Below are positions 8,004 to 63,900 of a stretch of 64,000 nucleotides of DNA, piece by piece. The position numbers and the translations under genes were made by a program. Below the pieces are notes generated by a model, which saw only the letters and a list, made by a program, of their open reading frames with translations, was not told the origin of the DNA and searched no databases. How positions within the stretch are numbered: position 1 is the stretch's first letter; each line of letters starts with the position of its first letter. This DNA comes from Lepidurus packardi. Its lineage: Eukaryota > Arthropoda > Branchiopoda > Notostraca > Triopsidae. The stretch is from positions 6,696,001 through 6,760,000 of the forward strand of contig JAKZAN010000005.1 of assembly GCA_023053545.1 (NCBI GenBank). Direction: 5' to 3'.

Positions 8004-9083
8004 CTAGCTCCAGTACTGTTCTGATCCAACATCAACGCAATCGCTAAATCTCACAGTATGAGAACTACCATCAGTAAAGGAAAATACAACTTGTTCATTG
8101 GCATCAATAGCTCTACCAACGTCAAAGGCATAATAAGGATTGTCTCCCCTGTGGCCCCCTGCCTGCCCATTCAGAGTAGCTCCAGTAACGATTTTCTCGT
8201 TGGTGTTGAGGAGTCCGATGTTCCTGTAGTAAGCATTGTTTGTCCCAGTTCCGGGTTTGTAGAAACACTGGTAGCTTCCTCCGGACAGAGGGTTCTTGTT
8301 GGTCATTCGGACTTGGCACCAGGCCTGTCCAGGGGGTTGGTAGTTGGTAGCGGTTGGCCTGAAAGGAAGATTTATAATACAAACTTTCATTATACAAAAA
8401 TTGACCAAATTTAGACGTTTTGAAAAGCTACTCTTTAAAGCGTCCATAATTTAAAAGTGCCAACCACGCACGCGATCTATGATCTTCAATAGAAATTACT
8501 TACCAAGTATTCCGGGAATAGAGATCAAGGCCTCCTCCGTAATTTGAGTTAGCGATGATGATGTCAAGTGAACCATGTCCACAATCAATATTTAAGACGT
8601 GGCCACACAGATCAGGCTTAAACTTTAGATGTTCAAGCTCCGCAATGTTACCAAGAGCAAAGGGGTTTGCTATTGCATAGCTGGCGGCCGGCAAAGCACA
8701 GGCGTCCCCACCTCCATTTTCATGCCGGGTGGCCAGGACATTATAAAGAGTAGGTCCAGAACCATCATCAGGATTTGTCGGGTTGTATGGTATTGACATT
8801 ACTCCACAAACCATACTAGAATCGCCTGTATCAAATGCATCGTTTTGTGATGCCCCGGTGTTTTCATCCAACATGTCCCGCCATTGTACGACGTCCAAGA
8901 GAAATGGGTACAACCGGAGGTTCCAGCACAAGTCCCACCACAATCGTATGATGAAACCCTGGCATTTGTGAAGTCACCACCATTGAAGTCACATCCGAGA
9001 GCCCAGTTGTTACCATTCCAGTTTATGTTGTGGACATGAGATACTCCGAAGAAAAGTAGCAAGGTGACGAATTTCAAATCCAT
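8004..9083 (-). CDS. Secreted apple-domain / double-psi-barrel expansin-like protein, with apparent frameshift
   Basis: Two exons, 9083-8504 and 8358-8004, joined TG|G in phase. The chosen ATG opens a signal peptide, MDLKFVTLLLFFGVSHVHN. Next comes a Cys-rich apple/PAN-like module (CGGTCAGTSGCTHFSW, GGTCWMK), then a region reading DLCGHVLNIDCGHGSLDIII followed by NSNYGGGLDL and PPGQAWC, which looks like a double-psi beta-barrel, then an expansin-like C-terminal domain with DNPYYAFDVG and FTDGSSHTVRF. The likely role is secreted carbohydrate or cell-wall binding/loosening; family and substrate are inferred. The frame breaks at the GGGG run (8853-8856): one extra base would restore a continuous 311 aa protein, and total coding length (935) is one short of a multiple of three. 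It is either a sequence error or a young pseudogene. Confidence 0.65.
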
Positions 9084-10166: not shown

Positions 10167-10591
10167 CAATAGGACTACGGTGTACCCGATGAAAGGACTA
10201 TGAGCCCCGACTTAGGACTACAAGCCACGACAAAAGGACTTCGGTTCCATAATCTTTCTAGAGATCAATAGCATTTAGAGTTCAAAAAGTCTCTTCTCAT
10301 TGGTCATATAGGCTACGACTTAGGTTAGGACCAGCTTAGGTTAGTTTAGGACTAGGTTAGGTTAGGACTAGCTTAGGTTAGGTTACGTTAGGACTAGGTT
10401 AGGCTAGCTTAACACTAGGTTAGGGGTATGTAGTCCTTACGTTGGGGTCTTTTAATCTCGTTTGCGCCTAATCAACGAGAAGAGACTTTTTGAACTCGAA
10501 ATGCTATTGGTCCCTTGAAAGATTATAGAACCGAAATCCTTTTCTCGGGGCTCGTAGTCCTTTTGTCGGGTACACCGTAGTCCTATTGTCG
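10167..10591. mobile_element. Foldback (long inverted repeat) element with TTAGG-like loop
   Basis: The left arm 10167-10304 and right arm 10468-10591 are inverted copies at roughly 85-90% by eye. Shared strings include ATAGGACTACGGTGTACCCG and GAGTTCAAAAAGTCTCTTCT. The left arm has one extra ~20 bp internal unit. The ~160 bp centre is a degenerate TTAGGTTAGG-type array. No open reading frame is present, so it is non-autonomous. A related single arm is found at 23880-24085, showing this is a family. Confidence 0.75.
10319..10424 (+). repeat. Degenerate interstitial TTAGG array
   Basis: About fifteen TTAGG or one-off units interspersed with ACTAGG/GCTAG. TTAGG is the canonical arthropod telomere repeat. 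The position as the exact loop of a foldback element argues for origin within a mobile element rather than a telomere fusion. Confidence 0.6.
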
Positions 10592-47171: not shown

Positions 47172-48142
47172 TTAGTTTGGCTTGTTATGAGGAATGGATA
47201 ACGTGACGATTATAGCAACGAAAAGCAGGACAATTAGAATCCAATAGCACCACGTACTATCTTTTTTGTCTACTACCGTAATGTGAGTTGTTTGGCGAGC
47301 TATCCGGCTTTGCGTGAGGTCAACATGATCAGCGATATCGTCAATTAACTCTGCAAGATTCAAACGGTATTACTGATCCATTACGAGATTAATGAAGGGT
47401 GTTAATATGAAAATCATACCGTTTTGGATGTCCACTTCGTTTCCAATCGCTCGAGCCATTTCTTTCTGTCGGCTTATCACCTGGGATAGAACTTCTAAAC
47501 CCGCATCTTGCTCTAAATAAACAGGAATGAAGTAATAGCAGGGAGTAATTTTTTTTAAAAACTTACGATCTAAAACTTGGACTTGCTGCTGTTTGAGGTC
47601 ATGGACGCTGACGTGACGAACGTCTTCTTCCCCATCGTCCCAGCCGGATACTCCCAAATTGGCTACGGATGACGAACCACCATATAGTTGTTGTCTGCTA
47701 GTGTTAGGCAGTCCATGATCACCCAGGGTATACTGAACTTGTTTTAATTTGCTGTATAGTCCGTCTACAATATAAGTTCTTCGATCGGACTCATGGACAG
47801 TCCTGAAAACCCAGGAAACCCTTAAACTATTATTGTATAGAAATATTTTTAAACCTACAACTCTCCATTTCGAGTTTGTTGATCCAAAATAATTTTCAGC
47901 TGGTTAATTTCATTAGTAAAATGCCTGACAGCCATCCTTACGTTTGTCGTAAGCTTGGCGTAAATGTTCGACGATCTTGGTTCTTGTTCCCTCAGACTAA
48001 AAGTCTGCATGATCTCCCTATGAATCTTCTCGCATTTCTCCAACTGCCGAGACCTACAAAATACTATTACTACATGATCAAAAACCATTGAAAAAATCAC
48101 AAACCATGCTTGGTTATCTGTCTCGATCTCAGTTAGTGCCAT
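47172..48142 (-). CDS. STX8: Syntaxin-8, Qc-SNARE of late endosomes
   Basis: Tail-anchored SNARE for late-endosome/lysosome fusion. Five exons: 48142-48105, 48053-47862, 47802-47567, 47512-47420 and 47350-47172; 245 aa. An N-terminal helical region precedes the family string HDLKQQQVQVLDQQDAGLEV, the SNARE motif LSQVISRQKEMARAIGNEVD then IQNELIDDIADHVDLTQSRI with the zero-layer Gln, and a C-terminal membrane anchor WCYWILIVLLFVAIIVTLSI with a short lumenal end. The first ATG gives MALTEIETDNQAWSRQLEKC. Its 5' flank is interrupted at about 48250 by the inverted-repeat element described next. Confidence 0.93.
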
Positions 48143-48250: not shown

Positions 48251-48555
48251 TTTTCAAGATTTCAACACATTATCAGACGGGATCCTGTGCGAAACCACAG
48301 GATCGCCTTGCACTCATCCTGTTCGTACGCACAGGATTATATACCCACAAGTTTCGCTTCAGCGCGGGATCACGTGACTTTGTTCTGTTTACGTTTCACG
48401 TGACTTTGTTTTGTTTACGTACGTAAAATTTTTTGTCATGGGTAAAACAAAGAAAAACGAAGCAGCGGTAACGGCAGTTCTTTTAAGAGCAAAGGAGCGG
48501 CAAGAAGAGTTCGAAAGACAAAAAAAAGAGGCCAGGAGGATTAAAGAACGCGAAC
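48251..48555 (+). repeat. Left inverted-repeat arm (promoter plus exon 1 start)
   Basis: Contains the palindrome GATCCTGTG-CGAAAC-CACAGGATC (48281-48304), a second palindrome ATCCTGT-TCGTACGC-ACAGGAT (48316-48337), two CACGTG boxes (48371-48376, 48397-48402) inside a 26 bp tandem repeat, and the ATG at 48438. It pairs with 57164-57468. Confidence 0.85.
48281..48402 (+). promoter_or_regulatory. Palindrome pair and tandem CACGTG boxes in the gene promoter
   Basis: Two perfect hairpin-forming palindromes followed by two E-box (CACGTG) sites 26 bp apart lie 35-157 bp upstream of the ATG at 48438. All these elements are conserved in the right arm, which has otherwise drifted, implying functional constraint or recent duplication. 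Possible roles are bHLH or transposase binding; this is inference. Confidence 0.5.
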
Positions 48556-50756
48556 GCTATAGAAAAAAGCAAGTGTTTCTTCATGCGTCCCTTACTACCA
48601 CTACGGGAATGTTACATTCTCGCACCAAACCTCGTCAAAAGGTGGGTAATCATTCTCGTGCGAAGCGAACGAATGGCCGTGCTCCGGATGTACAGGAAAC
48701 GCTCATCGATTCTCAAGAAAGTAAGACGTAATTTCAGCTTGGAACTGTGTAACGCAAACTGATCAAAATTATAATTCTTTCTGTAATTTAGACCCGAAGA
48801 ACGATTCCGGAGACAACAGGAGCACAAGGCAAACATTTACTAGCAATGTGAACCGTACGTCAACTCGCCCAGCCGAAAGTTGGCGTGAAAGGCGCGATAG
48901 ACTAGCAGCTGGTTGGGAAACCGTCCGACCCACAATTTTTACCGGCATCATAAAAAAAGAGTCGCCCGCCCTGCGCTCGAAGCAAATTTGCCTCAACTGT
49001 AAAAAGTCTCCAAGTGTCCTCCGGTAAGTAATGTCTTTCTCCCTAAATCACTTAATAAACTCTGACTTTAGATGCAGTGACGGATGCGGCGCTTTATGTA
49101 TCGAATGTGACGCCCTGAAACATACTTTCTTGGCGACACATTTTTTTTTTTCATTGTGTTATGCATTAAAAACGTAACATCTGAATCTTATTAGTTTGTC
49201 AGTCGAGCCTACGGAAGTGTTTGACCTGTTAAGCAGCGAATCGAGGCGCGTTTGTCCTGTCCGGAAATTCCTGCGGTACGTCCATCGATCCATCACGGAT
49301 GGTGTTGCAGCGGCTCGTATCAAGAGTTTAAAAATTGAAGTGTCAGCTGCAGCTGGTAAGTTTTTCATTCGGTTTAATCGGAACATATCTTCCGTCGACT
49401 CATAGAAAAGGTAAGTCATGCTGACCCTGATGTATTTTTTTGCTTTTTTAATGTCTATCTGAATGAATTGATATCTTTATCTGTAATATGTGATTGTCCG
49501 CTTTGCCTAAGGAGAAGCATTTTGTCGTAGCAACGTAGTCAGAGCACGTATGTAGCTTTTCAGGTGTGCATGAGCTTTTAGGAATTAAAAATGCTTCGTT
49601 CATTCGTGTTCCTCGTCTTCTGCTTTATGTAACCGCTTTATGTAAGTGTGCCGTGCTCCAAAGGCGAAACGATTAGAGGATATGTCAACTGTTTCCCGGT
49701 AAAGTTGTCCATTTTTGGCAACAATACAAGTTGTATTTTTATAGTTATACAGAATCTTTCTTATTGCTAAAAGTATTGTGAATTTGTTAATTCACGGCTT
49801 ACTTGGGGTGAAAATAAATTAATTTAAGGATCTCACTTCTTAAATGAAAGTGACAGCTTCTGCGCAATTATCGGTGTTGTATAATAATGTCAATACAAAT
49901 CCTTCTTCGTTAAAAAAAATCGGTAGTATAGTAGTTGAATGCATGGCTTACAAGGGTGGGGTATATTGAGACAGTCACTTGCTGACGCCCGTGAATCGCT
50001 GTAAATAAGTAGCTTCTTGGGATTGAAGTATCCCTTCTGCAAGAGACCGTTATTTTGAAATGAACTACGGGAACCGCAGCTTATAGTCAAGCATCTTTTC
50101 AACTTTTGAAGACACAAGCAAATTGAGGCGACAAAAACGCCTGCAAGCCGCAAGCGAGAAACAAAAATGGATGCAACACGTGGAGTGGTACAATAAACTG
50201 AGGAATTACGTCCCCGACGCTTCGGAATTCCCCAAGTTGGCAGAAACTGACGTGACTGATGTGCACAGTAATACGAATAATTCGATAGCACGTATACATA
50301 TACTGATGTGTGCTGATGTGTCTAGGCGACCGCGACCGACTGACCAAAGCCATCGATCTCTTCACTAAAGTAGAGAGAATCCGGGAAGAGCCGGAAATAC
50401 TTGATAGGGAAATGCACGATTTGAGCCGATACTACGAAGAAAAAGAGAAGGCGCTCGCAAATTTTCATCCTAGCATGCTTTGGCCCGCTTACGGACTTAA
50501 AAAATACTGTTTACCAGAAACCAGTGACGAAGTTGCTCTGGACGGCCTGAAGGCGTTGGTTATTAAGAGACAACGTCATATTTCTTTATTCAGAGAAGAC
50601 GCCATACGGCAATTTCAAGCCGTCAAAGATTGCCCATCTGTTAGTACTGAGACCAACGTACTGGTACGTGAAGAGGACGATGAAGCCGAACCGATAGAGG
50701 ACAGCGATTGGGATGACATGGAAGACTTATTCCTGGAAGAAAGTTTCGTCCTGTAG
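48438..50756 (+). CDS. KDZ-transposase-like protein lacking the catalytic core
   Basis: Six exons with fully consistent phases: 48438-48720, 48792-49023, 49072-49173, 49195-49355, 50112-50267 and 50326-50756; 454 aa. Residues 1-50 are a charged helix (MGKTKKNEAAVTAVLLRAKE). Then comes a WRERRDRLAAGWETVRPTI region and a Cys cluster CLNCKKSP...LRCSDGCGALCIECDALKH, the pattern I associate with the cysteine cluster of Kyakuja-Dileera-Zisupton transposases. The C-terminal half is coiled coil (EILDREMHDLSRYYEEKEKA), with a WPAYGLKKY segment and an acidic end (EDSDWDDMEDLFLEE), also like KDZ C-termini. The several hundred residues of DDE catalytic core expected between are absent; a 756 bp intron (49356-50111) sits where they would be. 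It is either an internally deleted element or a domesticated gene. Assignment to KDZ is from memory. Confidence 0.55.
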
Positions 50757-51376
50757 AATACGAAACTATTTTATTTCAAGCATAACCTGTTAATCAAGAA
50801 ATCAAAGGATTTTCATCTGAATTACAAAATTACGTTCGGTTACTACATAACTCAATGAAGATGGTAACTCAATAATGACAGTAGTTCTGTAACTGAATAA
50901 TTCAAGTTTTTTTCTATGATTTTGATAACGACAAAAAATGCGTGGTTCGTTTCCTATACAACATTTTTCTGAAACAACTAAAGCGAAAATGAATGGGAAA
51001 CAAACATAAATGTGCTCCTGTGTTCCAAATGATGTATGCAAAAATACATACAGTACTGTTCTTTATTTTTACGATATACTCGTCCCTCAAGTGAGTAAAC
51101 ATTGTTTACTCATCATCGTTTTGATCAGCTTGCTCATCATCATAGTTTTCAGCTCGTCATATTCAATTCAATGAAACAATTCGTACAGATGTCACTCAGT
51201 TACCATAGCAACAAGGTATCCGGTTTATACAGACTGACGTATTCAGTGACGTCATAACATCATAGATGTTCACGTGGTGTGCACGTGCTATACACGTGAC
51301 AATCCGGATGCTGCACGCTATAAGCACGTGATGGTTGCATGTTCTTTTGTATGGTAAAAGCAGTCTTATAAGTTGT

Positions 51377-51567
51377 CTAGACGGGACTTTAATTAGGCAT
51401 TAGCTAATGTTAGTCATAGTTAATGAACTTGTAACAACTTCTTCAATTCGGAAACTTCGTTAACAGTTGATTTTCATTAGCGTTAATGTTCTTGTCTCTA
51501 GACGACTCACTTAAACATATTTAACTCAGGTAGTCGGAGTTGATTATCATTAACTTGTCCCGTCTAG
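51377..51567. mobile_element. 191 bp MITE-like element, CTAGACGGGAC terminal repeats
   Basis: Starts CTAGACGGGAC (51377-51387) and ends GTCCCGTCTAG (51557-51567), a perfect 11 bp terminal inverted repeat with further weak inner symmetry (TTAAT/ATTAA). There is no coding capacity. It is nested in the larger segment; no clear target-site duplication is visible. Confidence 0.7.
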
Positions 51568-52516
51568 CCTAGGTATTACGGTTTGCAGCTCCGTACACTG
51601 CTGTCTTTTAGCACATAAAAAGCTTCCAGATGTTTTGGTTTAGTCAGTCTATCGTATTAGTCGATGCCTGAAGATTCGCATTTAGCTAGCGGAACAGCCA
51701 TTAAATCTAAAGAAAGCTGATACGTAATAGATGCCTTCCATCGTGAGGCTATGATGACTTTTCAGAAGGCAAAAAGGCAATGTTCAAATCAGATGACATC
51801 ATAAAGGAGTTATACATTATAATATTAGTGAATTGTCTTCATGAGAACTTCGCGGTATGGGGGTGGGCACAGAAAATACGTGTGAAGCATACACCAAATT
51901 CGCGCTTAAACGTATGGACATCCAAGGGCTGAACGAACGAAAGGATAAAAGGGAAGGAATAGGCTTAGTGTTTCCTGTTTCTGAAATTTTATATCGAACC
52001 TTTTTTCCCGCAAATATATAATTCATATATTGGGACAATCTCTCCAACATAAACCCAGATACCTCAAGACGCACAAGTTTGCAAAAAGACGTACACGCAT
52101 GAGGCATTAAGATAAATTATGTATGACATCTCTCTACTACGCTACCCCTGTTACGCATGCCTTAATAAAATTACATAAAAATTACTTCGATTTTTGAATC
52201 TGCAGATACCAAGACGCGAATCAATAAATTACTGAATTTTACTTTAACAGTTAGAGAAAATTGCACGGAATCACCAGGCTAATCTCTATTTTATTTTTGC
52301 TATTTTTCGCAATCATCGTACAATGTTTGGTGATTATTTCAGATTGTGACGGTGCGTTACATAGATGAGCGAAACCTAACGTTTTTTTATCCTTTTCTGG
52401 TGACGTAGATTACTAGGCGATCAATGCGCTTTTTCTCAGTAGGCCTGTAAGTCAAACCTTCATCATATCATCCATAGCGATTACAGTTGGTTATTGTTGG
52501 TAGGATGCAACATAAA

Positions 52517-52681
52517 CAGTGGCGTATACAGGACTTTGGTTCGTGGGAGGGGGGGATGGTGCCATGTGCAATTTTTGACACTTGGGTTTCCCTTTGTTCA
52601 CCAATATACAAAAATCATTTCAGGGGGTGCATGGGGGTGGGGTGGTTAGGGGATCGCCTAACCTCCGTGGATACTCCCGTG
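52517..52681. mobile_element. ~165 bp MITE-like element, CAGTGGCGTATacAGGA type
   Basis: Begins CAGTGGCGTATACAGGAC and ends TCCGTGGATACTCCCGTG, an imperfect terminal inverted repeat; the interior is G-rich (runs of GGGGG). The CAGTGGCG-ATCCAGG start is common in non-autonomous DNA transposons of many invertebrates. Translation of this repeat gives the familiar but meaningless QWRIQDFGS peptide. Confidence 0.55.
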
Positions 52682-53189
52682 ATTATAAGCGTAATCGTTT
52701 CAATATTATGTTTTCATAAAGTGGCCATTGTGATCCGTGACGCAGCTCTTGCAGGTTCCCATATCAAATTTCATTTCGCCTCTACCCTCACCCCCGGTTT
52801 CACTTTTGGTGACTTCTGGGCTTTTTCAGTTACTCGCATTTTGAATCTGAATTTCCGGAGGGAGCAGTTTGTAGATCTTGAGTGTATTCTACGGCTTCTC
52901 AGTGCTGCAACTCCGACGTCACACTATGTCCGAGTCGGGTATCCAATCTGTATGGCTATGACGTCCCATAGACGTCACGATGTTGCCCCTCGATGCCACT
53001 CATATACGTCACTATATATGCAATGTAGCATGTTGCTATAGTAACGGAGTGACTCTTCATTCCATAAGAAAAACAGTGTCGTTTTGGTTTCTCTTATTAG
53101 CCTACTCCCTACCGTTTGTCTTGTGTGATAAACAAGTATCGAATTCATAAACGATTTATGATTTTACGAGCAATTTCATAGAAACGAAA

Positions 53190-54983
53190 ATGGAGACGAA
53201 GTGGAGGCAGAATCGACGCTGTCCTCATTGCAATGTGGAGCAGAATTACATGCGTAAACAGTGCAGCGCGTGTGGAGAGCAAACACGTTTTAGGGACCAA
53301 ATGGACCAAAAAAGATCCGACAACATGCGACAACATTACCTAAAAGCGAAGTTGCAATCTCAGAAGTGGGACAATGCTTATGCCAAAAAGAAGATAGTTC
53401 AGAGAATGGTAAGCAAAATATAATTAGCACAACAAATTTTAGTTGCTCAACACTTCTGTATATAGTTGGCAGAGTTGGAAGGTTCAGGCAACGCTTGTGT
53501 CCTTCTTGTGATAGGGAAAGAACCAAGCTACCGGTTCACGTACCTCACATGTAATGACATAATGCACAGCTTATTTAAAGAAAAACAAGATTCGGGAAAT
53601 AGTAACTTCGCTGCAGAGATAAGCACAATGTGTAATAACTTGAGGGATGAGTACGTCTCAAGAATAAAGAAGTAATGTTTTTGTCTTAAAATATCGATCT
53701 TCACAATAATAATTCAGCCTGTAATTATAGAGGTGAACTTCCCAATAAATGGGTGGAATGTGAAAATACAATGAATCTGGAAGAGATCGATGGCTTCCAC
53801 AACTCTGTTCCAACAACCCAAGTGAGTCGACCAAAGTTAAGTAATTTTTAGAGCGATTGTTTACAGTTTACCCCAGGAGAGCCTTGTGGAATCGATAAGG
53901 GAACCAGAGGACAAAGAGGCTGCTGCATCTGCTGCTGTTATGATAACTCAAGAAAACCCTGCAGCTGTTATGGTCACACCAAAAAACGCTGCATTAAAGG
54001 ACCCGATTTTACAGAATGTGTGGTGTGCTACTTTGGACCGGGCAATAAGCACACGTTCGGAGCCCACTGAAGTAATTCGAGAAAAGTAAACGTACCGTTA
54101 CATCCAGTCGTGTGATTGTATACTTAGGTAACCTCTGGGCTGTTACAAGCCAATTCATTAGGGAAGAATATTCCTGCTGTCTCTTTTAAACCTAGAAATG
54201 TCGCTGCTCGCGGAGCACCGAAAAGAAGCGGAACAGGTGACTGGGTTCTTATCATATATTGTATTGTTGATTGGTTCTTTTTATAGGAAACCTGAAGAAA
54301 AAATGCGACGATGGCAACAAAAAGGAAAGTGGTTTTATCGCTTTGGACCGTCAAGTATGTAGATACGTTTATTAGGTTTCATATCCTGGGATGATATTTC
54401 GTAGCCCTTACCGTATAAATGTATTGCTTGATTGTAGAAAAAAAAACATGTGGAACTTCCCCGTGGACCCTCAAAGATGGCAGAGAAAAAGCCAGAGGAA
54501 GCTATTGTTGGATATCAGGGAAAACTTACTCCAGTATAACTGCTTTTTGTGTGTATGTGTATTCTGAATTCCTATTTATACACTTTATTACAGGGAAGAG
54601 AACTAAAGTAGATCCACCTCCAGTTTACCAAGAAGGAAACTCAAATGCCACAGTAAGTATATCCAATTACAAACATACAGGTTGCAAGAATACATTTTTT
54701 CTTTAGGTGATTGGTCATTCCACTTTGGCACAGATCACGTTAGAAGACGAGGTACAAGAGTAAACGTTAATTTGCGACTTTTTTCCGATTCACTTAGCGC
54801 TTTATTCATTTCAGGGAACTATTGAACAGGAAGTGGAGCACGTGTTTACTCTACATATGGAAATTCCAGAAGACAACATATTTTGTCCAGAGGTAACGAC
54901 AAAATTATCGTTATGATTTATGTAGCAACGGAACAGATTTTAGCGATTCAGTTGACAGATTTCTTGATTAATAGGTGGTGTAG
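53190..54983 (+). CDS. Unrecognised multi-exon gene with N-terminal CxxC..CxxC motif
   Basis: Exons 53190-53408, 53466-53650, 53731-53821, 53877-54071, 54128-54236, 54287-54354, 54438-54533, 54599-54652, 54707-54751, 54815-54892 and a terminal 54975-54983; about 382 aa, every junction in phase. I do not recognise the protein. Visible: CPHCNVEQNYMRKQCSACGE (two CxxC pairs, a likely zinc ribbon), a basic helix (RQHYLKAKLQSQKWDNAYAK), a hydrophobic stretch ACVLLVIGKEPSYRFTYLTC, then low-complexity Ala/Pro/Lys-rich and acidic segments in many small exons. Exon 4 has two possible acceptors 10 bp apart giving different frames (see findings). The last exon is the least certain: an open tail EVEDDEGEDVHVILEAA ending 55042 is an alternative. 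AATAAA lies at 55149. It sits inside the inverted-repeat segment. Confidence 0.5.
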
Positions 54984-55985
54984 CATTAAGAAGTGGAAGA
55001 CGATGAAGGGGAGGATGTTCACGTAATACTGGAGGCCGCGTGAACACCCAGCCAATCAGTATGCCAAATCAAACAATCTAATCAAGATCTGTGTTTCTGC
55101 CAGTTACCTGATTTCTGTACTGCCATCATAATGTGCAAAACTGCCAAAAATAAAAGAACTTCATTTTCTACACGCTGGGGTTTGCTTCCAGTAAGATTCC
55201 CACATCGTTCCATCCGCTGTCATCTGTAGGTTCGTCGTCTTCGTGCTCTTTCAACGATTGCTGGCTTTTCGCGAATCCTCTCGATTTTTGTAAAGGTCAT
55301 TTCCTTCACAACGTCATATTCCAATTTAGAAAACTCGAAATGATTAAACGCATTGTCTTAAACTTCAGAAAGGTCTTAGGATTGTCATAATTTTAAGTAA
55401 ACACCCCGAAGTGAATTATTTAACTTTTCTACCAAAATTAGTGCGATTTCATAATTACGTCCATAAAGAGAGTTAGGAATGATCTTTAAATATTCTTTAA
55501 GCCATGCACAAAAATAACCACAACATTTTTTAGCGATTGGAACAATGCTGTATATTTACAAAATACAAATTGAATTGCTGCGTAGAAAAGGACATCTTTA
55601 CCGAACAATAATTAAGATACTAATCTGTGACATTTGTGAGAAAAGTTACACCACTATGGAATAAAATAAGCCACAAACTGCTCATTATTACGTTTACTTT
55701 CCCTTAAATTTCCCGCTTTCTGTTCTGACACAGGCAACAGCGGGGCAACTGGCAAAATTAATTCTGACACGTTAATGGGCACCACCTTTATATAGTATCC
55801 CTACCAACCAGAATCTTACAAGTAAACAACCCAAGTCAACAAGTAAGGCGAGTTTAAAAAAAAAAAAAAAAATTGCCCCAACACAGTGTAAAAATTCTTT
55901 CACGTAGTACCATAGAAGGGTTGAAAGTGACCTTTTTGTTTATTTCATTAGCGTTTTTAAATTTAAGGTTCAATAACTTAAAAAA

Positions 55986-56279
55986 ATGCAGCTAAAAAGA
56001 GGTTTAACCTACCCCGTTGTAGTGGCCGATGACCTATACCCTATGCTAGGACACTTCTCACCAGCAGCTTCACGATACATAAAATATAAAATAGAAACTA
56101 TGGAAACGAAAAAAACACAGAGGAAGCAGAGTGACCAGTATAGCATTCTGCCCAAGAAAGAGCTAATTAACCGAATATCTTTAAAATTAAACCTTTCTGA
56201 TCAAAACTCTTTAAAGCCAGAAAAAAGGACGACGAAAAGAAAAATTGAAAAGAAAAATTTATCCTTTAAATATCCTTAG
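55986..56279 (+). CDS. Small basic open reading frame, doubtful gene
   Basis: 97 codons from ATG, MQLKRGLTYPVVVADDLYPM at the start and a Lys/Arg-rich end (KPEKRTTKRKIEKKN) resembling a nuclear localisation signal. No family is recognised and no splice partner identified. It could be a small gene of the segment or chance. Confidence 0.2.
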   Translation: MQLKRGLTYPVVVADDLYPMLGHFSPAASRYIKYKIETMETKKTQRKQSDQYSILPKKELINRISLKLNLSDQNSLKPEKRTTKRKIEKKNLSFKYP

Positions 56280-56533
56280 GTCGTCCCACAGAGATCAGAT
56301 AAGAATATGTTTATTGTAATTAATGAAGGTCATCGGGCTGCTTATTTGTTCTACGGCGTGCGCAGTACGTTTGGTGTTGTACTCCGCCTTCAAGTTTCTT
56401 CTCTCATAATCACTATCAGTTTGAAAAAATCTGCACTAAGCTCATTACAAACATTCATGATTTTAACCTGGTCATAACTTGCCTTTACTTAATAACCTAG
56501 CCTAATCTACGCTAAATCACTAGTCCATTAACT

Positions 56534-56571
56534 TGCCCGTGTGGTTTTAACGCGCCCGTGTGGTTTTAACG
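56534..56571. repeat. Exact 19 bp tandem repeat
   Basis: GCCCGTGTGGTTTTAACGC occurs twice back to back (56534-56552, 56553-56571). Confidence 0.9.
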
Positions 56572-57163
56572 CGCCTGGGTTTAGTGCATTAAAATAGGTT
56601 AAGATTTTTTTTATTAGGTTTGGTTTCTTTAGGTCTAGTTATAATTTATGCTGGAACTAGTTATAAGTTAGTTTTCGTTAGGTTATAATGGGCAAAAGGT
56701 GACCTGACAGGTATATTATCAAAAAGTACCGCGTGGGCTCGTTTAGGTTAGGCCTCTTTCGACTCGTACCAATTTTTTGCAAGCGATTGCCGTTCAGCTC
56801 ATGCCGCTTACCAACGAGACACCTTGCAGCTGCTGGTCAGACAGACCTATTACTAGCAAAGTGAACATTTGTAAGATTTTGATTAAAATACTGAAACAAA
56901 TACTACCTTCGCTACGCGGGTCTGTTCATCTCTCGTACGGATGTGAAAAAAAAATCTGCTACACGATCGCCAAGTGAGAGGGTTAGGTTAGGTTCCTCGG
57001 CTCAGTTTATGATCACTGTCAGGAACGTCTGTTGTTTAACTTAAAAGCAGTTTTCACCCACTGAAAGTGCTTGAGAAACAAGAAACCCATGAGGTATAAC
57101 TGAAAAACAAAAGTACCTAAATATTTCGCTGTCAACCGTCTTATTTAAAAATTATAAAGGAAG

Positions 57164-57468
57164 GTTCGCGTTCTTTAATCCTCCTGGCCTCTTTTTTTCG
57201 TCTTTCGAACTCTTCTTGTCGCTCCTTTGCTTTTAAAAGAACTGCCTTTACCGCTGCTTCGTTTTTCTTTGTTTTACCCATGACAAAAAATTTAACTACT
57301 AAACAAAACAACGTCACGTGAAACGTAAACAAAACAAAGTCACGTGATCCCGCGCTGAAGCGAAAGCCGTGGGCATATAATCCTGTGCGTACGAACAGGA
57401 TGAATGCAAGGCGATCCTGTGGCTTCGCACAGGATTTCTATCTGATAATGTGTTGCAAGATTTTCAAG
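57164..57468 (-). repeat. Right inverted-repeat arm, truncated copy of promoter and exon 1
   Basis: Inverted copy of 48251-48555. On the minus strand it carries the same promoter motifs, with CACGTG at 57315-57320 and 57341-57346, and an ATG (57280-57278) opening MGKTKKNEAAVKAVLLKAKE. The copy ends after the codons for KEARRIKERE, and the frame stops about 8 codons later, so it encodes only ~46 residues. It could still act as a promoter facing inward. Confidence 0.85.
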
Positions 57469-60900: not shown

Positions 60901-63900
60901 TCAGAACTCATTCCTTGTTCCAACAACATGAAATTCTCCTTGGCACGCTGCTCCGGTTAACATCTGGATTTGAACGCGAATACGTTGCCCAGATAATTTT
61001 CTGACATTGCTAATCAACTTCTGCTGCGAATCTTTCTTGTGCACGAAGGCAATAGCTGGTACTCCTTGAGAAGGTAATCAAACAACCCAAATGAGTAAAA
61101 ACCTACGAAAGGATGAACGTTACCCCAAAAAAAATCCGCAGCATGGCCGGTGAGAAACAATTCTGCAGTCTCTCCTCGCAAGTCTTGCAGCTTGAGCGTA
61201 GTTGTGTATGACAACACAAGATAAGATTCATCAAAATCCACATGGGCTGTAAATATTTTTTTAAATATTAATGTTTACTTATAAGAAAATCACACGCTAA
61301 AATATTCATACTAAGTATGAATCAAACACATCTTACCAAGAGTACAGTTAGGGCAACGATACAACTTGCAACGATATTTACACGAAGTTCTTGCAGCATC
61401 TTCTTCCACATTTACTCGGCCCTCTCGAAAATTGTTCACGGTAATCTCCTTGAGAATGTTCCTATCATATTGTGGGACATAATCGCTTTGCATATAGTCG
61501 GTGAAAGGGAATGTACAAAAATCTGCATACGGATACGCTACCGAACAGCGGACACAAAGACCAAACACCCAGTTCGACAAGACTCCATCTACGTCAACTG
61601 CAATACAAAAATGAACGTTAATTCCCACTAAAATTGGTTTCCAATATAAAAAGATTAATTAGCTACAGAAAGGACAAAATACTAGAGTTACATTTGCAGA
61701 GGTTCTTATCCATGGTTATTTGCAAAATTTTAGCTTTCTTTTGCCCTTGCTTCAACTCCCTTATGGATTCTATGACTTCAAGCTGGGCCTCTGCTACTAA
61801 AGCTTTCAATTCTGCTTTATGAACATCTCCTTCGATTTCTTCGGTCCCATAATATATGTCCCTGACAGCTTCCCTCTTGATGAGCACGCTTTGACTAGCT
61901 TGGCTTCTCCTTTCCACATTTGACACCTGATTTGTCCCAACCGAGGGTCCCACAAGCATTTTCTTCGCACTCTTTTCAAATTCTTGTTCAGAACTTGGTC
62001 TTTTTAAATTCACGGGATTAGCTGACAATAATTGAACCATTCCGAGTCCCTCCTCACGCGTCGTGGAAGGCGTAGCTTGACTTTCAGAATCCAAAGTGAT
62101 GGCATCATGGTTCCTTCCCTCTGTTTCGGCAGAAGAGTTCAAAGTGACTTCATTTTCATTAACCATTTGCGTGTACGCGACGTCCCGTCTTGATGGTACA
62201 TTCCCTTGCTCTTGCCTAACAGCAGGAAGATCTGAACTGTAAACTTCTTGAATTTGCTGCCGCGCTATGGATGGTAGGGAAGAAACTGTTCGAAGGAGTA
62301 CTTCAGAGGGTTGCAAGTAAGGGTTAGCATACGTTGTATTCTCTGAGTCCGTGGTGGGAGAACAAGCCTGAGTTTGAGGCTTCGAGATAATTCCATCTAG
62401 TTGTCGACATGCCTGCGAAGCTGATGTTCGCCTTTCTGAGGACTCAGATTCTGCACTCAGTTCTAATGTAAATTCCATTTCCAGGGTACTACTTAGTATG
62501 TCTTGGGAAGAAGTTACGCTACTGCTTAAGTTTCGGTCAGCGTTTTCCAACAGAGTGCTGGTGACCAAAGTTTCGACATGGGTAATAATAGGTAAACAGT
62601 ATTCAGGTTCCGAATCATTGGAATTCACGTTTTCCTGAGATACTTTTTCAGAACTTGTTCGTTTTAGCATCACGGAATTAGTTGACGGTAAGGAAACCAT
62701 TCCGAGTCCTTCCTCGCGCGTCGTGGAAGGCGTAGCTTGACTTTCAGAATCCAAAATGATCTCATCCCGGTTCCTTCCCTCCGTTTCGGCAGATGAGTTC
62801 ATAATAATTTCATCTGCATTGACCATTTGCGCGTACGCGACCTCCCGTACTGAAGGTACATTCCCCTGCTGTTGTTTAACAGCAGGAATATCTGAACTGC
62901 AAAATTCGTGAATTTGCTGGCGAGTTGGGGATGGTGGGGAAGGAACCGTTCCAAGAAGGCCTTCACAGGATTGCAAGTTGGGAGTAGCATACGGTGCACT
63001 GTCCGAGTCCGTGGTTGAAGAGCAAGCCTGAGTTTTAGAATTCGAGGTAATTCCATTTATCTGTCCACAAGCTTGCGAAACAAACGCACGACCTTGTGGG
63101 GACTCGGGTTTTGCATCCCAATGCAGCGTACTTTCCATTGCTAGGTTACGACTTAGTACGTCGTGGGAAGAAGTTGTGCTTCTTCTTAAATTTTTGTCAG
63201 CGCTTTTCAGCGGAGTGCTGGTGACCAAAGTATCCACATTGGTACTACTTGGCAAACTGCATTCATGTTCTGGATCACCGGAATTCAAAATGGTTGCTGA
63301 ACTGTTTAAAATTCGCATTATTTCGTTCACTTCCATTACTTCGTCAGTCCTTACTGGCTCCTCAGCTGATGGAAAGAGGGGAGAGGATACCTCACTCAAT
63401 GATTTTTGTTCACTTGCTGCTGCAGTATCTAGACGGAAAGGAGACAACTCTGCAAATTCATCAGTAGATGTACACACAGGCTCAGGAGGCGCTTCCGAAA
63501 CTGTTGTCTTCTTCGAATCCAGGATCCTCCTATTAAAAAATGTAGTCAAACCCGAAAAAGACAAAGATTAACGCGGCAACTGAGAAATGGACATAAAGCT
63601 TAAAAGACTCACTGGAATAGTAAACCTTTCAAATTACTCGTGTCCGACATTTTGCACATAATGCCTCGCAGTTCGAAACGAAAATATTCATAGTCTTCTT
63701 TCCTGGTCATTTTCAAATGAACTCCGCGGAATAATAAGTACATCCCAACCTACGATTCAAACCCACCCACAAAAAAAACAACTAATTAACATACATTAGC
63801 TGAGGAAATCAAATGAATCACCTCAATATCGAGGTCTTTTTTGGCGACAGGCACAAAAATTTTGATCACGGGATAATTGGAAGGAGTTTTGCGAACACCA

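Follow-up and report, generated by a model that had tools for sequence, protein, structure and literature searches.

A 9.2-kb insertion between STX8 and SMPD3

The 64,000-nucleotide stretch analysed here (the window) spans positions 6,696,001 to 6,760,000 of contig JAKZAN010000005.1 from the notostracan Lepidurus packardi (assembly GCA_023053545.1). It contains eukaryotic genes with short introns, its CpG observed/expected ratio is near 1 and its GC content exceeds 40% over much of its length. Between the starts of STX8 (syntaxin 8) and SMPD3 (sphingomyelin phosphodiesterase 3) lies an element of 9193 bp (48263-57455) that bears long terminal inverted repeats and contains two multi-exon genes, here called gene 1 and gene 2. 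Comparison of the interval with itself by BLAST revealed an inverted match beginning at CAACACATTATCAGA on either side, the arms of which measure 293 and 292 bp and are 93.5% identical over 294 columns (E about 2e-121), far beyond chance. When lengths of 4-14 bp were tried for a target-site duplication next to these ends, a match was found at 8 bp only, a perfect direct repeat of CAAGATTT. Terminal inverted repeats (293 bp, 93.5%) and an adjoining perfect duplication of 8 bp are both expected of a class II element, and it is nearly certain that 48263-57455 is a DNA-transposon insertion. No second copy was found in the remainder of the 64-kb window.

An earlier reading of the letters alone (the sequence-only reading) had proposed a mobile-type element with inverted arms of 305 bp ending at 48251 and 57468, and had recommended aligning the arms and searching for target-site duplications. 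The mobile character and the arms are borne out by that alignment and search, but the proposed ends lay about 12 bp too far out: the 12-13 bp outside each true end consist of the target-site duplication and a few flanking bases and are thus not part of the inverted repeat.

Table 1. Features of the element and of its insertion site, in window coordinates.
Feature	Position	Strand	Description
Target-site duplication, left copy	48255-48262		8 bp, CAAGATTT; identical to 57456-57463
Left terminal inverted repeat	48263-48555	+	Terminus CAACACATTATCAGA, near-palindromes, TATATA, TCACGTGAC repeats, start of gene 1
Gene 1	48438-50756	+	Six exons, 448 aa; starts in left arm
Gene 1 exons	48438-48720, 48792-49023, 49072-49155, 49195-49355, 50112-50267, 50326-50756	+	Open frame
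Inverted block in 756-nt intron (intron 4) of gene 1	49681-49801	+	Partner 55619-55498, 70.7%, E 1e-13
Inverted block in last exon of gene 1	50360-50407	+	FTKVERIREEPEILD; partner 55295-55248, 72.9%, E 0.001, weakest
Inverted block, C-terminus, stop and 3' end of gene 1	50671-50776	+	Partner 55250-55148, 69.8%, E 2e-11
Inverted block	50785-51003	+	Partner 54976-54779, 63.6%, E 6e-15
Inverted block, end of gene 2 exon 2 (remnant)	51041-51105	-	TMFTHLRDEYIVKIKN; partner 53687-53625, 75.4%, E 1e-7
Inverted block, orphan gene 2 upstream region	51191-51253		TGACGT motifs; partner 53053-52992, 73.4%, E 2e-5
Centre between halves	51254-52991		Two possible nested small repeats
Gene 2	53190-54089	+	235 aa in model, score 4.0; starts in element interior
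Gene 2 exons	53190-53408, 53466-53650 (or to 53672), 53731-53821, 53877-54089	+	Spliced model
Gene 1 C-terminus remnant in right half	55148-55295	-	Two pieces in different frames, about 260 bp lost relative to left half
Right-arm stub reading frame	57141-57281	-	46 codons: 39 align to gene 1, 7 unrelated, stop
Right terminal inverted repeat	57164-57455	-	Pairs with left arm in inverted orientation
Target-site duplication, right copy	57456-57463		8 bp, CAAGATTT; direct orientation, perfect

The arms open gene 1 on the left and a short stub on the right

Each arm contains two 22-nt near-palindromes (ATCCTGT...CACAGGAT), a tandem pair of 25-nt TCACGTGAC repeats and, some 100 bp ahead of an ATG, a TATA-like hexamer (TATATA at 48338 and ATG at 48438 in the left arm); the motifs were read directly in the left arm and through the arm-arm alignment in the right. 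The ATG and the first 39 codons, counted from it, are common to both arms, with residue changes at 3 of the 39, and the similarity ends past 48555. Differences between the arms are more frequent in non-coding sequence (18/176 columns) than in the 39-codon stretch (4/118; Fisher p 0.04). There are 22 copies of the hexamer CACGTG in the window, for which about 10 occurrences would be expected from composition, and 10 of the 22 lie in the element, including four in the arms. The palindromes, CACGTG boxes, ATG and roughly 38 codons that the sequence-only reading had ascribed to both arms are thus all present. Four further CACGTG boxes occur within 60 bp at 51271-51330, adjoining the orphan upstream region of gene 2.

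Both arms are predicted to act as promoters firing inward. In the right arm, the ATG opens a stub of 46 codons that lies antisense to gene 2, and the arm would drive this stub and then transcripts antisense to gene 2. A search for a spliced gene starting in the right arm, with introns of up to 800 nt, returned the stub itself as the best model (score 1.3). A three-exon model obtained with introns of up to 1800 nt was weak (score 3.4) and we do not believe it. Gene 2 runs toward the right end and the right arm does not drive it, a point on which the two-gene scheme of the sequence-only reading, with a promoter firing inward at each end, is not supported.

Gene 1 and gene 2 can each be spliced at GT-AG introns into an open reading. 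In gene 1, the exon ends of which were picked by hand, the introns measure 71, 48, 39, 756 and 58 nt, and the codon score is weakly positive in five of the six exons (-0.3 in exon 3) and strongly negative in the other frames. An automated model of the full gene omits exon 3, and a run restricted to the 5' half shifted the ends of exons 2 and 3. The 3' end of gene 2 is provisional, as more exons are possible downstream. Of the two well-formed multi-exon genes described from the letters, gene 1 is borne out with its six exons, and gene 2 is multi-exon with a provisional 3' end.

The protein encoded by gene 1 has a basic N-terminus followed by a weak B-box-like cysteine cluster (Pfam zf-B_box, E 0.015-0.03, under the cut-off). 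KDZ transposases have a cysteine cluster of their own type near the N-terminus, and gene 1 may correspond to the two terminal portions, N and C, of animal KDZ proteins. With its basic start, its weak B-box-like cluster and a C-terminus judged helical, it would look to us like a KDZ transposase minus the catalytic core. The KDZ transposase domain itself (PF18758) was not found, either with two pieces of gene 1 at a maximum E of 10, a search in which the HMMER filters discard most weak matches, or with the entire protein at a limit of E 0.1. All Pfam matches of gene 1 were below threshold and none was a transposase catalytic domain. Gene 2 begins with a zinc-ribbon-like segment (Pfam DZR, E 0.075, under the cut-off). 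Neither protein contained a MULE transposase domain in Pfam up to E 0.1, and neither matched the PDB up to E 1. Against viral_contigs, the gene 1 protein (447-aa query) gave four short-pattern stretches and the N-terminal 142 aa of gene 2 gave six, none of which was confirmed by tblastn; an exact 22-base pattern from the arm had no match in viral_contigs or genome_contigs. Since these two collections hold viruses or prokaryotes, their null results say little about an animal element.

The inverted repetition continues through both halves

The arms are not the only part of the element that is mirrored. Beyond them, the two halves match in six inverted blocks that keep the same order throughout and are 64-75% identical. 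This inverted repetition, collinear through both halves, had been missed in the sequence-only reading; because it continues in this way, the arms are best understood as that portion of an inverted duplication which has been preserved best. For both genes, the blocks include coding as well as non-coding sequence. Gene 1 is kept in the left half, together with a fragment of gene 2, and gene 2 in the right half, together with fragments of gene 1. In the right half the pieces of gene 1 lie on the minus strand, as do those of gene 2 in the left half, from which it appears that both genes were at one time present, in convergent orientation, in each half.

Chance as the source of the inner blocks was ruled out by several comparisons. 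The six-block chain scored 318 bits. Among control intervals of 9193 bp, a single block was found in 3 of 39, which overlapped (32.6 bits), and two blocks in none; among shuffled sequences, 2 of 100 gave a single block and none gave two. At E 0.01, the halves did not match each other in direct orientation, nor did either half match 12 other 4.5-kb segments of the window on either strand, the last of which overlaps the left arm by 238 bp. Under stricter scoring, five blocks were retained (54.3, 46.4, 45.5, 43.8 and 35.0 bits), compared to 34.1 bits for the best of 200 shuffles.

The differences accumulated in these blocks are compatible with decay of one of the copies. In the block covering the C-terminus of gene 1, they are spread evenly over the three codon positions (7/27, 9/28 and 8/28), and this spread, together with the frame-shifted pieces of gene 1 in the right half, fits one copy being a relic. 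The four differences in the 39 codons shared by the arms, three of them residue-changing, are likewise what a relic copy would show.

No element-like terminus was found in the centre at up to four substitutions. Two possible nested small repeats were noted there, one at 51368-51576 with 20-nt arms that are 80% complementary and 169 nt apart, and one at about 52519-52679, recognised by eye, with a G-rich interior and loosely inverted ends. A search for nested insertions in the right half yielded only imperfect short inverted repeats (14-20 nt, 75-88%).

Origin of the mirrored layout

We consider it probable that the element arose long ago when a two-gene unit was duplicated in inverted orientation, so that both of its ends derive from one ancestral end, with complementary loss of genes from the two halves; graded on a single copy, duplication followed by complementary loss is well supported. 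The ancestral unit would have had a promoter-bearing end, with gene 1 reading inward from it and gene 2 reading outward toward gene 1. Doubling of this unit in inverted orientation, which we infer to have occurred in a single event, would have placed gene 1 rightward and gene 2 leftward in one half, followed by gene 2 rightward and gene 1 leftward in the other. The copies would then have diverged, gene 1 surviving in the left half and gene 2 in the right, perhaps because one copy of each gene suffices. The terminal 293 bp may have been kept similar by the need of a transposase to recognise the two ends, or by gene conversion, and the first 39 codons of gene 1 would have been carried along within the right end. 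Since no transposase domain was detected in the element, its movement, if any, would rely on an enzyme made elsewhere, perhaps of the KDZ/Zisupton kind.

Several observations weigh against this account. The block at 51191 is marginal when taken alone (35.0 bits under stricter scoring, compared to 34.1 bits for the best shuffle), and the block at 50360 was seen under looser scoring only (E 0.001). Two inverted matches are out of order, one of 17 nt (50347-50363 with 53796-53780, E 0.005-0.006) and one of 25 nt (49597-49621 with 54766-54742, E 0.05-0.07), both of which we treat as chance. In the right half, positions 55620-57163 lack similarity to the gene 1 exons on the left. The KDZ label draws on the length of the target-site duplication, the CA..TG ends and a presumed resemblance, and the searches of Pfam, the PDB and viral contigs gave it no support. 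With one copy of the element in hand, the duplication can be neither dated nor demonstrated in relatives.

The same mirrored layout would also be produced if two members of one two-gene family had inserted tail to tail in opposite orientation and become a single composite after loss of their inner ends. The centre, where no matched block crosses the axis save the 20-nt arm pair at its edge and where the two possible nested repeats lie, would suit such a history. However, a single target-site duplication flanks the whole element and no inner terminus was detected in the centre at up to four substitutions, and we regard tail-to-tail insertion as unlikely. An artefact of assembly or a chimera is a negligible prospect: inverted duplicates do occur in assemblies, but here the arms differ by 6.5% and the inner blocks by 25-36%, and the target-site duplication encloses the whole.

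The two other explanations that we weighed concern what the element does. Gene 1 and gene 2 could be host genes under selection in an element that has become immobile, as the open spliced readings of both genes, the weakly positive codon score in five of the six exons of gene 1 and the lack of a transposase catalytic domain in Pfam might suggest. The target-site duplication is still perfect, which fits a rather young insertion without proving it, and such domestication of the pair appears doubtful. Alternatively, the element could silence, or could once have silenced, its own family through antisense or hairpin RNA produced from inverted pieces and inward promoters. The model for this is maize Mu killer, a MuDR derivative in which both ends come from the mudrA side and are combined with inverted partial copies of mudrA (PMC3440606). 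In the present element, the right arm is antisense to gene 2 and pieces of both genes occur in both halves; yet the inner blocks, only 64-75% alike, are too diverged to form a long perfect duplex together, and both genes retain an open reading, making a silencing role, argued by analogy, very unlikely. Inverted duplication with complementary loss thus stays the explanation that we favour.

Comparison with known elements

The sequence-only reading did not know ends with inward-firing promoters from described families, but promoter-bearing ends are the published layout of MuDR, the maize Mutator element, in which two convergent genes are transcribed from promoters in terminal repeats of about 215 bp (PMC3440606). 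MuDR resembles the element in having two genes and promoters inside its terminal repeats, the latter being predicted in the element. In contrast to the convergent MuDR genes, which start one at each end, the right end of the element opens a stub and gene 2 is internal, on the plus strand from 53190; no MULE domain was found in gene 1 or gene 2. The likeness to Mu killer is one of architecture only, as both terminal repeats come from one original end and pieces of a gene are inverted (PMC3440606). Mu killer carries partial copies of the single gene mudrA, whereas the doubled unit of the element spans two genes, with one open copy of each and an inner identity of 64-75%. In its layout the element resembles an old Mu killer extended to two genes, but it shows no Mutator domain in Pfam. 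Terminal repeats with promoters inside them (MuDR) and a pair of ends derived from one (Mu killer) are already known. The two-gene palindromic arrangement was not met in the literature that we searched, a search aimed only partly at inverted duplications and palindromes and covering few subscription papers.

Membership in KDZ/Zisupton, which the sequence-only reading had guessed at, is plausible and unproven: the 8-bp target-site duplication suits it, although no KDZ domain was found in Pfam. Zisupton elements share with the present element a target-site duplication of 8 bp, a length that is also usual for hAT and hence not specific (PMC12730594). Kyakuja elements have CA..TG ends like those found here, but their target-site duplications are 7 bp long and they lack terminal inverted repeats (PMC12730594). 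The Zisupton transposase genes of Pristionchus are multi-exon like gene 1, but they encode proteins of up to 1400 aa with homology in PF18758, and no target-site duplication was detected for them (PMC9297572), whereas gene 1 encodes 448 aa without a match to PF18758. KolobokP is likewise a eukaryotic DNA transposon of compound architecture, but its ends are long direct repeats with short terminal inverted repeats of their own (PMC9587614), unlike the inverted halves described here. The foldback-type element Tm1 also has structured terminal inverted repeats with repeated motifs, and differs in its 9-bp target-site duplications and Mutator-type transposase (PMC3169594).

Neighbouring genes and other features of the window

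The left neighbour of the element, on the minus strand, was identified as STX8, a solved fragment of which heads 24 SNARE-type matches (E 6e-14) to a query protein spliced by eye; the right neighbour was identified as SMPD3, the sole match (E 3e-10). The STX8 ATG lies at 48142 and that of SMPD3 was taken as 57765, further ATG triplets being present upstream. Once the element and one copy of the target-site duplication are removed, these ATGs are 421 bp apart. The divergent gap and the identity of both neighbours had been recognised from the letters, with a distance of about 410 bp that falls short of the computed value. IFT52 domains were found in Pfam farther left in the window.

Elsewhere in the window, a MITE-like inverted-repeat element occupies 10206-10570 (arms 10214-10302 and 10473-10561, 89% alike, with outer ends CCCGAC...GTCGGG). 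At 61980-63287, within a minus-strand open reading frame of 634 codons, about 649 bp are duplicated in direct tandem, the copies being 80% alike. At 8004-8973, two open frames on the minus strand (148 and 157 codons) had no Pfam match at the cut-off. Scans of the window for tRNA genes and Rfam families returned nothing.

Implications for the evolution of transposon ends

As a single copy, the element is a modest finding. Its interest lies in being, on the account favoured here, a readable record of how a transposon can gain two alike, gene-bearing ends by inverted doubling and complementary loss, a history that accounts for the start of a coding sequence inside a terminal repeat. It is conceivable, though quite unlikely, that the element represents a whole transposon lineage that is palindromic by descent, in which a two-gene unit was mirror-doubled, the halves became mutually dependent after complementary loss and the duplicated end still expresses a short N-terminal piece of the gene 1 protein, a potential competitor of the full-length form at the ends. 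If relatives show intermediates, the origin of long promoter-bearing terminal repeats would become directly testable.

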